Positions 54,594 to 64,000 of a DNA stretch of 64,000 nucleotides are shown here, in pieces. The notes beneath the pieces were generated by a model. It did no database searches. It saw only the letters and a list, made by a program, of their open reading frames with translations, and was not told where the DNA came from. This DNA comes from Acidobacteriaceae bacterium (GTDB lineage: Bacteria > Acidobacteriota > Terriglobia > Terriglobales > Acidobacteriaceae). The DNA is taken from the NCBI GenBank assembly GCA_025355505.1, contig JANXZM010000100.1, forward strand, positions 1-64,000, read 5' to 3'. Each line of letters starts with the position of its first letter. The stretch's first letter is position 1. A program made the translations under genes and the position numbers.

Positions 54594-55235
54594 CTAAGTA
54601 TCGGTCCCAACGTAGCACACTCGGCCCACGATACAGTCGCCGGGCTTCTGGCCGTCTCCCAACATTATTACTTCACTCGGGTAGGCCGGGTTGTGCGGGC
54701 GGAGGATCAAGTGATCGTTTGCGGTTTCGACATACTTGATCGAGCAAGTCTGATTCTTGCGCGCGGCGTAAATGTTGCTTTCGTCCTTGCGGTAGCGAGT
54801 CGTCGAATTATAGTGGCGGTCAAGCAGCAGGGTAGCGCCGGGCGTGATGCGGGGATCCATGCTCATTCCTTCGTGCGCGTCGGCTTTGACGATCACAAAG
54901 CGTTCCCAGGCACTGCGGTTGCCTTCCATTTCCGCCTTCAAGCGCTTCAGAACAATCTTCCTAAACTTCAGCATCTCCTTGACGTGCTTGCTCATAATCA
55001 CCGCTTCGCAGGCTGCGATTTGCGGGTCGGCGACCATGACGTTGTCGAATTCGTCGTCGCTCGGCGGAAGGATTGAGGCGCGCTTGTTGACTTCGGCGGA
55101 ATCGATGAGATCCAGCACCGAAAAATGCTGCACGTTTAAAATTTTATTTATGCCTTCCAGGCTAAGTCCGCGCTTGCTGTTGAGGAAGTTAGAGACGTGC
55201 GCTTGCTTGAAGCCGGCCTGTTCCGCCAGCCGCAA
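54594..55235 (-). CDS. XRE-HTH / S24 LexA-like phage-type repressor
   Basis: GFKQAHVSNFLNSKRGLSLEGINKIL and C-terminal S24-like domain; coding homology continues upstream to 55298 through an in-frame TAA. Confidence 0.8.
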   Translation of the reverse strand: MRLAEQAGFKQAHVSNFLNSKRGLSLEGINKILNVQHFSVLDLIDSAEVNKRASILPPSDDEFDNVMVADPQIAACEAVIMSKHVKEMLKFRKIVLKRLKAEMEGNRSAWERFVIVKADAHEGMSMDPRITPGATLLLDRHYNSTTRYRKDESNIYAARKNQTCSIKYVETANDHLILRPHNPAYPSEVIMLGDGQKPGDCIVGRVCYVGTDT

Positions 55236-56117: not shown

Positions 56118-56698
56118 CAAGGGCGCAGACGACGAAACCACAAGGATGGAGTCTGATGGGGCAGGCGGAACCTCCGCCGTCCGTGGTATTTGGCGAAACG
56201 GAGATGGAGCTGTCTCCCTACCGCAGGCGCACAGTGGCGCTGCTGCGGCGGTATGCGCGGGCCTCGGTGGAGGTGGGAAGGCTGCCGTCGCTGCTGGGGC
56301 GCGAGTTCTTCCGGACGCGGGTCACCTCGTACACGATGAGGAACTTTGAGGACGTTGTGATCTTTGTGGCCGACATGGAGAAGGCGATCGAGAAGCTGAG
56401 CGCAATTGAAAAAAAGCTGTTGGGCATGAACATTCTGGAGGAATACAGCGTAGACGAGGTTGCGCGGCTACTCGGTTGTAACCCTAAAACGATCCGACGG
56501 ATCCTCCCGGATGCGCTCGACCAGCTGTCGCGGATACTGCTGGCGGGTGGTTTGATGGATAAATTACCTTTGGTTACAAGGGGTCGGGAAAGTTGTCAAG
56601 AGGGTAAAAACCACAATTTTGAGGTAAGTGACTCAAAGGAAGGCGAATATAAATATCGGAAAAATGTCCATCCAGCCCCTTCCAATTTGATATCCTAA
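56114..56698 (+). CDS. sigma-70 region 4-like HTH protein
   Basis: LSAIEKKLLGMNILEEYSVDEVARLLGCNPKTIRRILPDALDQLSRIL; ATGA overlap with upstream gene. Confidence 0.75.
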   Translation: MTRAQTTKPQGWSLMGQAEPPPSVVFGETEMELSPYRRRTVALLRRYARASVEVGRLPSLLGREFFRTRVTSYTMRNFEDVVIFVADMEKAIEKLSAIEKKLLGMNILEEYSVDEVARLLGCNPKTIRRILPDALDQLSRILLAGGLMDKLPLVTRGRESCQEGKNHNFEVSDSKEGEYKYRKNVHPAPSNLIS

Positions 56699-56960: not shown

Positions 56961-57425
56961 ATGGACATGACGTGGGTCACGGAACGAGTGGCGCTGGGCG
57001 GCGGGATATGGAATGCGCGAAACATGGAAGAACTGGCGCAAGCCGGGGTTACGCACGTGCTCAACATGCAGATCGAGTTCGATGACCGGCCGCTGGCGGA
57101 GCCGCTCGGGGTTCGAGTGCTGTGGAATCCGACCGACGACGATTTTTTGCCGAAGCCCGTCGAACTGTTGAAGCGCGGCGTTGATTTTGCGCTGGCGGCG
57201 CTGGACGAGCCGGAGGCGAAGGTTTATGTTCATTGCGCCGCAGGGGTACACCGGGCTCCGATGATGACGCTGGCGGTACTATGCGCAATGGAGTGGGAAA
57301 TAGAAGCGGCCATGGTGCTGATCGAAACGCGAAGGCCGGTGGTTGACTTCGCGGATGTGTATGTAGAGAGCGTGCGGCGATTTTTGGAGTCGCGAGTTGA
57401 GAGCAAGCCGCAGAGTTCAAACTAA
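56961..57425 (+). CDS. dual-specificity protein phosphatase family protein
   Basis: VYVHCAAGVHRAPMM (HCxxGxxR P-loop). Confidence 0.88.
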   Translation: MDMTWVTERVALGGGIWNARNMEELAQAGVTHVLNMQIEFDDRPLAEPLGVRVLWNPTDDDFLPKPVELLKRGVDFALAALDEPEAKVYVHCAAGVHRAPMMTLAVLCAMEWEIEAAMVLIETRRPVVDFADVYVESVRRFLESRVESKPQSSN

Positions 57426-57533: not shown

Positions 57534-60500
57534 ATGCCCAGATCGTTGGGGTTGAAAAAGAATTGTCCGATGGCAGCGGAAGTGATGATATGCGTTTTGC
57601 TGGCGCTGTTGATGACGTTGACCTTGTCGAGTAAGTTGCAGGCGCTAGGGCCGGCGCTAACGACGATCAGCGATACGGTGTATCGGGCTGACGGAAGCGC
57701 CGCATCGGGTACGGTGCTAATTTCATGGCCGTCGTTTCAGACCGCCATGGGAGATGCGGTGGCGGCTGGCAATCTAGCTGTGACCTTAGGGCCATTAGGC
57801 GCGTTCAGCGCGCAACTGGTTCCCAATGTAGGGGCGTCTCCGGCGGGAACTTACTATGTCGTGGTTTTCCAACTGAACGACGGAAGCGTCCGGACGGAAT
57901 ATTGGGCAGTTCCCGCGACTTCGCCGACGACGATTGCCTTGGTGTTGACGACACCGGGTACAGGGCTTGGGAACCTCGCCGTGACGCAGCAATACGTGAA
58001 TGCAGCGGTGGCGAATCGCGCGCTTGACGCAACGGTGGTGCACTTGGCGGGAACGGAGACGATCACCGGCACGAAGCAGTTTGCAGTTCCTCCAGCGCTT
58101 CCGGCGCCGAGCGGGGCCAATGACGCCGCGAACAAGATTTATGTGGATACGGCAGTGGCGAACGTGGGTTCGGGAGCATTCGTCCCCCTGGCGGGCGGCT
58201 CGATGACTGGTCCGTTGACCCTGCCCGGAGATCCGACCGCACCTAACCAGGCCGCCGACCGGCACTATGTGGACAGTGGGCTGTCGGTGAAAGCGGACCG
58301 GGTGAATGGAACTGTTCCGCCCGGGGAATTGGGAGCGGGAATCGCCAGCGCGGCTACTTGCTTAATCGGTAACTCGACGTGGGGATCTTGTGGTGGCGGC
58401 GCGCCGGCCGGGATTACTTATGCTACGACGGCGCTGAATTGGACGCAGGTCATCTCCAGCTCTTTAACAGGAGGGTCGCAGGCAACAGTTACGCTAACTC
58501 CTTGTCCGATTGGCATTGATACAACGAGCGGAGCCGGGTATCAGATTTTTCTTTCCGGGGGAGGAAACAGCGAAGCTGTCAGCGTAATCACCACCCCCGG
58601 GGGATGCACGTCAGGAGCAGCGTCGGGAACGATCAAGTTCACTCCATTCAATTCCTATGGGGCCGGATACACACTGGGTTCGGCCTCCTCCGGTATTCAG
58701 GAGACGTTGAATGCGGGTTGCGGAGTCGATACAACCGCATACAAAAACAGCCAATGCAATGTAACGATTCCAGCAAGCGGGCCGAACGGGACTGTCACCA
58801 CTTACAACGTGTTGGGCACGATTTATTTGCATTCCAACCAATCTGTTTTAGGCGGTTACGGAACATCGCTTAACTGCCTTGAACGCGGCGCCTGCTTACA
58901 GATTGGCGATCTGCAGAATTCCAACAACTATACCAGCAACACCGTTACTGGGCTGAGCTTTCGCACGCCGGTGAATCTCGCAAGCAACCCGGCATTTGCT
59001 GGAGTCGCAATCACCCAAACGCGAAGGACATCCCAGGTTGCAACCATCACGACGGCCAGCGCGCATGGCTTTCGGGTGGGAGATATGGTGACGATCCTGT
59101 TTACCGACAGCAGCAGCTACTGGGGCGATGCGACGATCACGGCGGTGCCGAGCTCAACGACGTTCCAGTACGCACACTCTGGCGGTGACATCGCGGTGCA
59201 GGCAAGTCCCGGCGTAGTGGCGCTGGCGTATGTAGCGGTGTTAGATAACGCTGTAAATACTCATCTGATCGACATTTCATACGATAAGGTGGGAGAGAAT
59301 GGCGCGTTCAACAATTTTTTCGATTTATGGGACGACGAGAACGTGACCATCGAGCATTTCAACAATCAAGCTATACCGCTGAACAACAATGCGAACTGGA
59401 CGGGGTCGTTTGTGTTCTCGGCAGGAAACCAGAGCACTCAGATTGCTCCGGTGATCACGCTGCGCGACTCGAGCATTACCGCGAATTACTCGAACGGGGT
59501 GACTGTCTACAATTCAAACGGACTCTATATTGAAAATACCGTCCTTCAAGCGACGGGTCCGTGGCAGGTGTATTCATCCAACACCACCGGAAACTTTCAA
59601 GGAGCCTACCTTAAGAATGTGTATTCCGAGAGCACCACTGCTCTAAACCCGCTCTCTCCACCGCGGTCTCCCTTTCCAGGTCTTGGAATTGCCGGCTTAA
59701 TAGCCGGAATATCGAGTGGAGCGGCTAGTTTTCAGATTGCGGGGAATGGCGGTGTTCTGGGAGCGTTTGCAACGGGGGGGGCAGGTTCTACGCCCTATTC
59801 ATACTTCATCGTAGCCAATGATACGACTGCCGGGACGCAAACCTCTCCGATGCAGATTCTCAATTGGCTTTCTACCGGAAGCGATTCTATTCCAGTTCGT
59901 TGGCCGAGGGTAGCGAACGGGAATGATGCCATCACTTATGACGTGATCCGGATGACGACACCATCTGGAGTCGGTGCAGTCTATCCCTACAACGGGGGAT
60001 GCGTTGGTGGATCGGGCGGGGCATGTGGATATGTCGCAACGGGAGTTCTGCAATCTGCGGCGTGTTCTGGTGGATTAGTGTGTACTTACACAGATAACGG
60101 AGCGTCGTCCACCTCCGCGTACACGATCAAGCAGGCTAGTTACGGTGGAAACCTGAACTTCTGGCCTGGTTCGGTGGTATCGGTGAACACGAGCATCAAG
60201 GTAGATGTAGAGCAATCGAGCGTCGTAGGAGTGGGGCTGAATGGAAATCCGCTTCAAATCGCGAATCAGTGCACGAACTACGGAACAACGTCGCCGGGAG
60301 GCTATACAGCATGTCTAGCGAGCGTGACAGCCGCCAACAATAGCGTTCCCAATCAATCAGCCACGATTATCACCGATGGGACAGAGGCAGGAGGCGGCCT
60401 TACGCTATCCAAGGGGCGACTGAATTTCTCCACCAGTCCGGGAGCGAGTCTTACCGCGCATCACATCATTACGCTGATTGATTCCCAGCCAGCGTTGACG

Positions 60501-63500
60501 CAAGCAACGTGGGGATATCGTCCGCCGGCGAGCGCAAATGATACATGGATCGGAACAGATTTGCCGAGCGGCGGAGTGGGTCTGGGTTCGGGGCAGCTTG
60601 CGTTTGGAGCCCCGATTACGATCACAAATTACATCGCCCAGACGGGGGATGGCATCCACGCGAACTGGTCGGAAAGATTAAGCGCATCGCTGAAAGAGTT
60701 CAACGTTGCAGCGAAGTTCGATCAGAGCGTTACGATCGCCGGACTGTCGAATGGCTGCCTCAATATTGCTTCGGGCGTGATTACATCCACCGGAGCTGCT
60801 TGCGGAACCGGGGGTGGGACTGTTAGTTCGGTGTTTGGGCGCTCGGGTGCGGTTGTCGCGGCGAGCGGCGACTACGCGGTATCTCAAGTTACAGGGGCGG
60901 CTGTGGATGCATCGGTGGTCCATAACACGGGCGTCGAGACGATAGCTGGGGCAAAAGCTTTTACAAGCAATGTCACTATAAGTGGAAATTTACTATTGCC
61001 GCAGGGGAATGCCTTCGTTCCCGCGGCTGGCGGCATTGGGCTGGATACAGCGGCAGGGTTACCAGTGGTAAACATAGGCGGCACAACGCACCAGGTTGCT
61101 TTTACAAGTTCGAATATCAGCGGACAGGCAGGGAGCGCTCTTGCGCTAGCGGCCGTTCCGACGCAGTGCAGCGGGTCGTTTGCGACCGGCATTGCGGCGA
61201 ACGGGAATGCGAATTGCACAACGCCTAATGTAATCCAGCTATCTGAAACCACGCCACCCGCGGGAATTCCTAACTGGGGTGTTTTCTGGTTTGATTCAGC
61301 GACTCATACTCCACGGGTTCTTGAGAATAACGGGCAAGTTATTCAACTAGGAATGACTAACTTGTTTAACTCGGATCCTGGCGGCGATCCTGCGGACAAC
61401 CTCGAGGAACGCAATGGGGCCGTTGCGCAAAACTTGCGCGTGTATTCGAGCTTTGTGAATAACACAACGTGGCAGCGGACATCTTTGGGATTTGATGCGA
61501 CGGACAACTACGCTGTGGTACGAAGCGAGAACGCGACATCGGCGACGGCGCCAGGGTTGGGCTTTTGGATTGGGAGCGGGCTGAAATGGGTGGTAGACGC
61601 CGCGGGCAATCTTAAACCCTTCACAGACAATACCTTCAATCTAGGTAGTGACGGCGGGAACGCAGCAAAAAGCATCTTTGCGAAGACTTCGTTCAACTCG
61701 GTTGTATTCGGGCGCAACGATTTCGAGATTCCGAATGATGTGCCGACGGGGACGGTGGTTAACCAACTGGCAGTGTTCAATACAAACAGTCCGTCGCAGG
61801 CGGTGGTTGCGAGTACATCGTCGACTAATGGCGTGATCGGCCTGGTGCAAGGCGGAGCCGGTAAGAGCGGAAACGCAGTGATTACGTGGCGCGGCTACGC
61901 CTATTGCATTTTCGACAATGCGACTACCGCGGGAGATGCGGTCATAGCGAGCACCGGCACAGCGGGCGATTGTCACGACTCTGGGTCGGGGGCGCAACCA
62001 GCGGCACAGCTCATCGGCTATGTAGATGTTACGAATGCGATATCTGGACAAACGAACGGAATCCGGGTCAGCATACAGCCTCCGCAAGGTGGTGGTGTCG
62101 GCACCGTGGCTTCTGTATTCAGCCGTACCGGTGCAGTGACGGCCGCTAGTGGCGACTATTCCGTGTCACAAGTTACGGGGGCTGCGGCAGACTCTGCTGT
62201 TGCTCACCTGGCGGGCGCTGAGACGATTACTGGGCCGAAAACATTTTCCAGCGACGTGACGCTCAGCGGGAACCTGAACGTGGCGGGAAATATCAACCAG
62301 ACGGGCACAGGGCCGACGCAGTGGTCGGGGAAGAAATGGGCGGGAACGACGGTCACGGTGCCGGGCGGAATGGATTTTTCGCTAGGAGTTGGATCGGACA
62401 ACACGTTCAAGTGTCAGTTGACGAGCGGGGCATCGTGCATGGGTGGGGGCGTTGTTGCGAGCGTGTTCGGGCGGACGGGCGCGGTAGTGGCTGGCAGCGG
62501 CGATTATTCGGTGGGGCAAGTTACGGGAGCGGCGGCTATTGCATCCCCGACATTTACCGGAACGGTGGCTGGGGTTACGGCGACGATGGTTGGGCTGGGA
62601 AGTGTTACTAACAACGCGCAGACCCAAGCGTCAATTGTACCCAATACCGTACCGTCAGCGGGTCAGATTCTTGTGGGCAACGCGGGGGGAACGGCGTTTG
62701 GGATCGTAACTACGAGCGGCGATGAAACAATGAGCGCCGCTGGAGTTACCACGAACACGAAGATCAACGGTACGACAGTGCCGACGAACTCCGCAGCCGA
62801 TCAACTTATCGGAACGTCGGCATCCGCTACTGGCATATGGCTCACGGTTCCGGCGTGCGCCGATGCTAGTGGAAACCACCTCAACTTCACTCACGCAGGC
62901 GGCATTACTTGCGGCACAACGTCAAGCGGGGCAAGCGCGGTACTTTCCGTTTTCGGTCGCACCGGGGCGGTGGTAGCTGTAAGCGGAGATTATACCGTCG
63001 CGCAAGTAACGGGAGCGGCGTCGCTGGCGTCGCCTACTTTCACCGGGACGGTAATAACTTCAGCGTCAGTGGCCGGAGGATCGGGGCTCAATGTTCCCCA
63101 CGGTTCGGCTCCTGCGGCTCCGGTGAACGGCGACCTTTGGACGACCACGGCTGGCCTGTTTGGGCGCATCAACGGAGCTACGGTTGGACCATTTGGGTCT
63201 GGCGGCAGCATGACGTGGCCAGCCGCTGCGGGTATCGCAGTTTATGCCGGAGCGAGTGCTTGGGGAACGTCATTGACGGCACCAATGGGTCCGCTGGTTG
63301 GCACGACGGACACCCAGACATTGACTGGCAAGACTCTGGACGGAGTTAGCCCAGCCACGATGGCGTTCGTTGACGCCACATCTTCTATCCAGACTCAGTT
63401 GAACAACAAGGCTACCATAGCGTCGCCTACTTTCACCGGAACGGTAACAACCCCAGCGTCAGTGGTCGGAGGATCTGGTCTCAACATCCCCCACGGTTCG

Positions 63501-64000
63501 GCTCCAACGATCCCGGTCAATGGAGATATGTGGACTACGACCACAGGCTTATTTGCTCGGATCAACGGCGGAACGGTCGGGCCATTAGCAGCCACTGCCG
63601 TCAATAGCGTGTTTGGGCGAACTGGGGCAGTTGTGGCGGCATCGGGAGATTACACCGTCGCGCAAGTAACGGGAGCGGCGTCGCTGGCGTCGCCTACTTT
63701 TACCGGCACGCCGGTCGTGCCGGGATACGTGACCAGCGGCACGGCGGTGAACGGACACGCGCTTTCGTCAAATATAATTGTGTCCGCGTCGGACCTAACG
63801 ACTGGGACGGTTCCCACGGCTCAACTACCGGCGCCTACCTGCTCCTGGATCACAGTGCCTACGCAGGGCGGCTCGGGCAATGTGTTCTCGGGAACAAATA
63901 AGGCCATCGTGTGGGGTGTTTATAACCCCTATCCGTGTGTAACCAGCAATGTTGCCTACGTCGTCGGCACAGCGGATAACACGTCAGACAATTATGCGCT
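57534..64000 (+). CDS. giant secreted phage-tail-fibre-like repeat protein, incomplete at window end
   Basis: GAGGAG ribosome-binding site then ATG 57534; frame checked line by line with no stop to 64000 (at least 2,155 codons); signal peptide-like N-terminus; repeats SVFGRTGAVVAASGDYTVAQVTGAA and (G)xETITGxKTF. Confidence 0.9.
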   Translation, partial: MPRSLGLKKNCPMAAEVMICVLLALLMTLTLSSKLQALGPALTTISDTVYRADGSAASGTVLISWPSFQTAMGDAVAAGNLAVTLGPLGAFSAQLVPNVGASPAGTYYVVVFQLNDGSVRTEYWAVPATSPTTIALVLTTPGTGLGNLAVTQQYVNAAVANRALDATVVHLAGTETITGTKQFAVPPALPAPSGANDAANKIYVDTAVANVGSGAFVPLAGGSMTGPLTLPGDPTAPNQAADRHYVDSGLSVKADRVNGTVPPGELGAGIASAATCLIGNSTWGSCGGGAPAGITYATTALNWTQVISSSLTGGSQATVTLTPCPIGIDTTSGAGYQIFLSGGGNSEAVSVITTPGGCTSGAASGTIKFTPFNSYGAGYTLGSASSGIQETLNAGCGVDTTAYKNSQCNVTIPASGPNGTVTTYNVLGTIYLHSNQSVLGGYGTSLNCLERGACLQIGDLQNSNNYTSNTVTGLSFRTPVNLASNPAFAGVAITQTRRTSQVATITTASAHGFRVGDMVTILFTDSSSYWGDATITAVPSSTTFQYAHSGGDIAVQASPGVVALAYVAVLDNAVNTHLIDISYDKVGENGAFNNFFDLWDDENVTIEHFNNQAIPLNNNANWTGSFVFSAGNQSTQIAPVITLRDSSITANYSNGVTVYNSNGLYIENTVLQATGPWQVYSSNTTGNFQGAYLKNVYSESTTALNPLSPPRSPFPGLGIAGLIAGISSGAASFQIAGNGGVLGAFATGGAGSTPYSYFIVANDTTAGTQTSPMQILNWLSTGSDSIPVRWPRVANGNDAITYDVIRMTTPSGVGAVYPYNGGCVGGSGGACGYVATGVLQSAACSGGLVCTYTDNGASSTSAYTIKQASYGGNLNFWPGSVVSVNTSIKVDVEQSSVVGVGLNGNPLQIANQCTNYGTTSPGGYTACLASVTAANNSVPNQSATIITDGTEAGGGLTLSKGRLNFSTSPGASLTAHHIITLIDSQPALTQATWGYRPPASANDTWIGTDLPSGGVGLGSGQLAFGAPITITNYIAQTGDGIHANWSERLSASLKEFNVAAKFDQSVTIAGLSNGCLNIASGVITSTGAACGTGGGTVSSVFGRSGAVVAASGDYAVSQVTGAAVDASVVHNTGVETIAGAKAFTSNVTISGNLLLPQGNAFVPAAGGIGLDTAAGLPVVNIGGTTHQVAFTSSNISGQAGSALALAAVPTQCSGSFATGIAANGNANCTTPNVIQLSETTPPAGIPNWGVFWFDSATHTPRVLENNGQVIQLGMTNLFNSDPGGDPADNLEERNGAVAQNLRVYSSFVNNTTWQRTSLGFDATDNYAVVRSENATSATAPGLGFWIGSGLKWVVDAAGNLKPFTDNTFNLGSDGGNAAKSIFAKTSFNSVVFGRNDFEIPNDVPTGTVVNQLAVFNTNSPSQAVVASTSSTNGVIGLVQGGAGKSGNAVITWRGYAYCIFDNATTAGDAVIASTGTAGDCHDSGSGAQPAAQLIGYVDVTNAISGQTNGIRVSIQPPQGGGVGTVASVFSRTGAVTAASGDYSVSQVTGAAADSAVAHLAGAETITGPKTFSSDVTLSGNLNVAGNINQTGTGPTQWSGKKWAGTTVTVPGGMDFSLGVGSDNTFKCQLTSGASCMGGGVVASVFGRTGAVVAGSGDYSVGQVTGAAAIASPTFTGTVAGVTATMVGLGSVTNNAQTQASIVPNTVPSAGQILVGNAGGTAFGIVTTSGDETMSAAGVTTNTKINGTTVPTNSAADQLIGTSASATGIWLTVPACADASGNHLNFTHAGGITCGTTSSGASAVLSVFGRTGAVVAVSGDYTVAQVTGAASLASPTFTGTVITSASVAGGSGLNVPHGSAPAAPVNGDLWTTTAGLFGRINGATVGPFGSGGSMTWPAAAGIAVYAGASAWGTSLTAPMGPLVGTTDTQTLTGKTLDGVSPATMAFVDATSSIQTQLNNKATIASPTFTGTVTTPASVVGGSGLNIPHGSAPTIPVNGDMWTTTTGLFARINGGTVGPLAATAVNSVFGRTGAVVAASGDYTVAQVTGAASLASPTFTGTPVVPGYVTSGTAVNGHALSSNIIVSASDLTTGTVPTAQLPAPTCSWITVPTQGGSGNVFSGTNKAIVWGVYNPYPCVTSNVAYVVGTADNTSDNYA

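Follow-up and report, generated by a model that had tools for sequence, protein, structure and literature searches.

Acidobacteriota are among the most abundant bacteria in soil, and the exchange of DNA among them is, to our knowledge, largely undescribed. The stretch of DNA analysed here (the window) comprises the first 64,000 nucleotides of contig JANXZM010000100.1 of an Acidobacteriaceae bacterium (parent contig C57, 126,161 bp), and towards its right edge begins a giant gene on the forward strand, termed the fibre gene (57534..64334), whose product is predicted to be an exported, phage-fibre-like protein. A first-pass annotation of the window had described one uninterrupted frame from the ATG at 57534 to the window edge, and this is borne out: the frame leaves the window at 64000 and continues to a stop at 64334 (2,266 amino acids), while mononucleotide shuffles of the region reach no more than 255 open codons. 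A GAGGAG-like ribosome-binding site lies upstream of the ATG. Extension past 64000, a check which that annotation had proposed, also uncovered phage structural genes downstream, which it had missed because the window ends inside the fibre gene. Since this phage module directly follows the fibre gene, the gene does not encode a lone host protein, and the idea of a lone secreted host protein is ruled out in its simple form.

The encoded protein combines a predicted export signal with parts typical of phage tail fibres and tailspikes. Residues 1-39 (MPRSLGLKKNCPMAAEVMICVLLALLMTLTLSSKLQALG; 57534..57650, + strand) form a putative signal peptide, as the first reading had it (signal peptide or transmembrane segment), with a mean Kyte-Doolittle hydropathy (H) of 2.96 over 12 core residues and a net charge of +2, according to a feature count on the sequence. 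It is followed by a conserved N-terminal domain (ND; residues 41-142; 57654..57959, +) shared with stand-alone secreted proteins across the class; the N-terminal part of the fibre has no Pfam or NCBIfam domain. The constant N-terminal region ends in tail-fibre collar repeats (ETITGTKQF, MTGPLTLPGDPTAPNQAADRHYVD; 58056..58313, +), and the tail-fibre-type phrases reported earlier were located at residues 175 (ETITGTKQF), 224 (MTGPLTL), 574 (VNTHLID) and 661 (SNGLYIENTVLQ). An Asn-rich stretch (59253..59600, +) is likewise present; the right-handed beta-helix suggested for it is hinted at only, by a CEMIP_beta-hel match whose E-value of 0.02 falls below the cut-off. Further along lie five FGRTGAVVAASGDY motifs of the BppL_N type (60834..63690, +), that is, FGRTGAV-type motifs at residues 1101, 1529, 1645, 1807 and 2027; Pfam BppL_N is significant in three stretches (E 2.6e-7), PHROG 16348 matches five stretches (E 1e-14), and PHROG 10512 and 29292 are also matched. 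The motif repeated in the C-terminal half, VFGRTGAVVAASGDYT, is that of the N-terminal domain of the lactococcal phage lower baseplate protein (BppL_N, PF18338), with the difference that here five copies are spread along a 2,266-residue, presumably exported protein, and that the motif is absent from most relatives in the locus.

On contig C57 a second gene with a predicted signal peptide starts at 64348, 14 bp after the fibre gene, and has weak beta-helix and polysaccharide-deacetylase matches below the family cut-offs. It is followed by the genes for the terminase large subunit (starting at 66772), the portal (71395) with two small head-type genes, the capsid (74024), an adaptor, a putative tail-tube protein (T303) and a hub-like protein (T692; about 77815-80153; L003:14075-16153), after which comes a small gene. 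The left border of the module is formed by a gene for a CI-like repressor (54594..55235, - strand; PHROG 4, E 4e-12; family present in 18 mapped genomes), and a sigma-factor-like regulator of the module is encoded at 56156..56698 (+; PHROG 1740, E 6e-8; family in 23 mapped genomes). The right end, in most mapped genomes including those of a second family (f7), is E2, a lipoyl transacylase gene, followed by F16-F21. Library matches within the module cover terminase, portal, adaptor, repressor and endolysin families. Between CI and E2 no integrase or replication gene was found, several small genes there matching no family, and no direct repeat of 14 bases common to both module ends was found.

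For the capsid, neither PHROG nor PDB offers a relative with a meaningful E-value, and there is no match among 50,697 phage records; its homologue is encoded on a Paenibacillus phage-plasmid (36% identity; hhalign E 1.5e-42), where it sits between the portal and tail genes and is accompanied by a full tail machinery. By predicted fold T303 is a tail-tube protein, its best Foldseek matches being tail-tube proteins (E 1.6e-7); a profile comparison with the Paenibacillus tail-tube protein gave no match, so that only the fold search supports the assignment. No sequence relatives of T692 were found except for a weak hhalign match (probability 11%, E 0.003) with the gene that follows the tape measure in the same phage-plasmid, and its label as a hub is therefore a guess by position. 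At least 95% of the terminase sequences keep the residues of the ATPase and nuclease motifs (motif assignment our own).

We surveyed 396 genomes of the phylum, including 73 Acidobacteriaceae-type family genomes. The capsid is present as a single copy in 56 of these 73 and in three genomes of family f7, at 63-81% identity; across some 20 genera its length stays near 323 amino acids and its identity at 68-81%; a 57th family genome (G233) has a capsid stub, and the capsid was not found elsewhere in the 396-genome sample. Named carriers, all Acidobacteriaceae, are Terriglobus, Granulicella, Edaphobacter, Acidipila and Bryocella. The gene order of the module is largely conserved, and its left flanks (F15/F23/F24/F32) are common to genera and to family f7. 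In genus g4 (L045, L050-L052) the module is rearranged, with the head genes followed by the fibre, terminase, portal and T692, and in several genera purE/purK lie between the module and E2. In an outgroup family genome (G281) the E2-F16-F21 site is empty and carries no element. Genomes without the capsid mostly retain remnants at the E2 site: a fibre stub (G251), the capsid stub with tail genes (G233), terminase and portal without capsid (G242), HipA and DUF3037 only (G290, G143, G155), CI and purEK (G179, G200), or, in G245 (L228), a deletion that fused the fibre N-terminus to T692 and removed the whole head module. In G135 nothing of the module was seen at this site.

This distribution is matched by the phylogeny of the module. 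When seven module proteins from 29 genomes are concatenated, the resulting tree has 16 of 26 splits in common with that of rpoB, whereas shuffled labels give at most three. The rpoB tree has 16 splits supported at 95 or more; the module tree recovers 14 of these, and the two it misses both fall within genus g4. Distance correlations between module and rpoB range from 0.69 to 0.93, and for all seven genes none of 2000 Mantel permutations reaches them. Ratios of nonsynonymous to synonymous substitution rates (dN/dS) against close relatives are about 0.06-0.10 for the capsid, 0.07-0.15 for the portal, 0.14-0.32 for the terminase and 0.10-0.16 for T692. The module is thus under purifying selection and inherited with the host chromosome. 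Together, the congruence with rpoB, the low dN/dS and the retained terminase motifs argue strongly against a recent prophage and make simple decay unlikely.

A family of ordinary temperate prophages, integrating site-specifically beside E2 and using the giant frame as their tail fibre, would account for the CI-like repressor, the sigma factor and the phage structural genes, and would agree with Eichorst et al. 2018 (PMC5900883), which lists an acidobacterial "Cluster 153" as predicted active prophages and a possible new viral group. Its Terriglobus roseus member (NC_018014, 150-180 kb) contains one of our module loci (L098), and its KBS 89 member (scaffold00005, 60-90 kb) overlaps another (L115); the part of that paper available to us says nothing of vertical inheritance in single copy, of a conserved site, of domestication or of a fibre that is exported (PMC5900883). 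An inducible temperate prophage would be expected to carry an integrase and attachment sites and to have a phylogeny and distribution independent of its host, whereas the module has no integrase or replication genes that we could find and no 14-base repeat common to its ends, is single-copy, follows the rpoB phylogeny, has left remnants at its site where the full module is missing, lacks a tape-measure gene, and bears a signal peptide on its fibre. We reject this explanation on integrase, phylogeny and site, and regard it as very unlikely. Just as unlikely is a functionless cryptic prophage in decay and retained by chance: several genomes do have partial deletions, and T692 of the window genome an in-frame stop, but dN/dS stays at about 0.06-0.3 for the head and packaging genes, the terminase catalytic motifs are conserved, and the capsid has held its length and identity across some 20 genera.

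Tail fibres are normally assembled in the cytoplasm, and an exported fibre is for this reason unexpected. A hydrophobic N-terminal segment (H of at least 1.8) is present in 49 of 58 ND-bearing proteins of the module loci, compared with 0-5 of 23-29 sequences for each of seven other module proteins (terminase, portal and capsid among them); most of the remaining nine appear to be cut short, either at the edge of the locus or because the start was called too late. The export signal is, as far as sequence can tell, genuine and conserved, and the lack of such a signal expected of a cytoplasm-assembled tail fibre is not seen here. Beyond this signal the family is variable. The first 250 or so residues of the fibre match fibres of about 14 other genera, the remainder about one on average. 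The variable C-terminus is often of a carbohydrate-active type: in relatives it has a GDSL lipase, an F5/8C domain or a weak match of pectate-lyase type, and these join BppL_N and the MTGPLTL and TKQF repeats as features of phage tail fibres and tailspikes. In family f7, signal-peptide fibre and tailspike genes are found at the opposite end of the module, adjoining E2; one tailspike of the f7 module (L224:1-20000; G110/G130) is of the pectate-lyase type and has a signal peptide.

In other families of the class (L211-L217, L220), stand-alone proteins composed of a signal peptide, ND and a fibre occur with no phage genes nearby, usually with one match per genome, and the fibre of the window shares their make-up (signal peptide, ND and a fibre-like C-terminus). 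Because such proteins exist without phage neighbours, phage fibre parts have probably been joined to a secretion module of host type, which forms the exported N-terminus. The same proteins could be taken to mean that the fibre serves the host as a surface adhesin or depolymerase and is tied to the phage module by position only, the capsid locus functioning separately, and one genome (G236) indeed retains the fibre and beta-helix genes without any capsid gene. In the mapped capsid-bearing genomes, however, the fibre lies in the module, adjoining the terminase in family f1; the signal-peptide fibres of f7 are at the other end of the same module; and the fibre is usually lost along with the capsid. 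We therefore think a merely positional link unlikely.

On this evidence we consider it likely that the gene encodes a fibre- or tailspike-like protein of an ancient domesticated locus of siphovirus type, possibly a gene transfer agent (GTA), and that the fibre is exported by the Sec route. The first-pass annotation had proposed a tail-fibre architecture converted into an exported protein, which holds for the fibre features and the conserved export signal and fell short in passing over the phage module; it had also held that a structural phage module immediately downstream, or the lack of an export signal, would speak against its proposal, and the module is there, yet so is the signal. The fibre is not an ordinary tail fibre: its module is domesticated and passed on vertically, and its export signal has been kept across some 20 genera.

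As the locus has retained terminase, portal and capsid but has no integrase, use as a GTA would be its likeliest role; we give this assignment about even odds and do not file the locus under it. With known GTAs (RcGTA/Rhodogtaviriformidae, BaGTA, BhGTA; PMC9662315) it shares a structural gene cluster derived from a Caudoviricete phage, single-copy vertical transmission, purifying selection, a retained terminase, and the lack of any integration or replication genes that could be found. All three recognised groups come from Alphaproteobacteria or spirochaetes and none from Acidobacteriota (PMC9662315), and the locus differs from them in its CI-like repressor, its predicted Sec-exported fibre and, in the Acidobacteriaceae-type family, the missing tape measure. 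Under such a scheme, stress would induce a subset of cells under the control of the CI-like repressor and the sigma-like factor, and these cells would build capsids packaging cellular DNA. The fibre would be exported by Sec into the periplasm or onto the cell surface and may there bind or trim exopolysaccharide, the cell's own or that of neighbours, and it could join the particles at lysis or act as a free enzyme or adhesin.

Several observations weigh against such a functional domesticated locus. Losses are frequent (17 of 73), so that the locus must be dispensable. The AlphaFold model of the capsid is poor (predicted local distance difference test score 36) and uninformative, and the identity of the capsid therefore rests on the position of its phage-plasmid homologue. 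No tape-measure gene was found throughout the Acidobacteriaceae-type family, where the gap between T303 and T692 is mostly 10-250 bp and where, if T692 has moved, there is no candidate elsewhere in the module; family f7 has, by our reading of the sequence, a 420-residue tape-measure-like gene between tail tube and T692 (L224:1-20000; G110/G130 module). Without a tape measure a functional long tail is doubtful, and the particle may have a stub tail only. Most relatives have no endolysin inside the module. T692 of the window genome has one in-frame TAG where close relatives read tryptophan, possibly a nonsense mutation or an assembly error. Lastly, particle production, DNA packaging, export and polysaccharide binding or cleavage are all inferred from sequence.

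The closest functional analogue of the fibre is, by comparison, TspA of RcGTA (PMC13420450, preprint), a detachable, biofilm-degrading tailspike of a domesticated particle, with an N-terminal beta-sandwich, which acts on extracellular matrix, is partly particle-free and is proposed to be released by lysis. That paper mentions no signal peptide, while the fibres described here have a conserved one and reach up to about 3,000 amino acids. Terriglobales provirus groups of a 2025 study (PMC11924767) may overlap with the locus, and in the open-licence literature we found no account of it as vertically inherited or as a GTA. A vertically inherited capsid and packaging locus in about three-quarters of one family would constitute a GTA candidate in a new phylum, and one that is present in cultured strains such as Terriglobus roseus and Granulicella. 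A fibre whose N-terminus stays constant while its C-terminus is exchanged, and a tail that has kept its tube but lost its tape measure, raise questions of how domesticated phage particles work. Tentatively, we can imagine that Acidobacteriota have a GTA lineage of their own, exapted separately from the three recognised groups, whose tail is a stub without tape measure and whose giant fibres, sent out by Sec and displayed on the cell surface, differ from one another in the manner of an adhesin repertoire; export of the fibre rather than attachment to the particle would then decide the partners of DNA exchange.

Among the remaining genes of the locus, a dual-specificity phosphatase gene (56961..57425, +; Pfam DSPc, E 1.9e-10) is co-located with the fibre in 11 mapped genomes. 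A HipA-like kinase gene and a gene of what we take to be the DUF3037 type, a label given by resemblance that no library match confirmed, separate terminase from portal in almost every copy of the module (contig C57 68595-71165; L003:4595-7165), and the pair persists in the three genomes (G290, G143, G155) from which the head and tail genes have gone. In the source genus there are two copies of the DUF3037-type gene (69479-70252 and 70362-71165), one of them fused to a LexA/UmuD-like S24 domain. Beyond E2, contig C57 carries at 83068-88162 (L003:19068 to L004:4162) a second fibre-like gene, an M15 endolysin, a possible holin, a lipoprotein-like gene and a papain-like peptidase, which look like module genes displaced or left there in the source genus.

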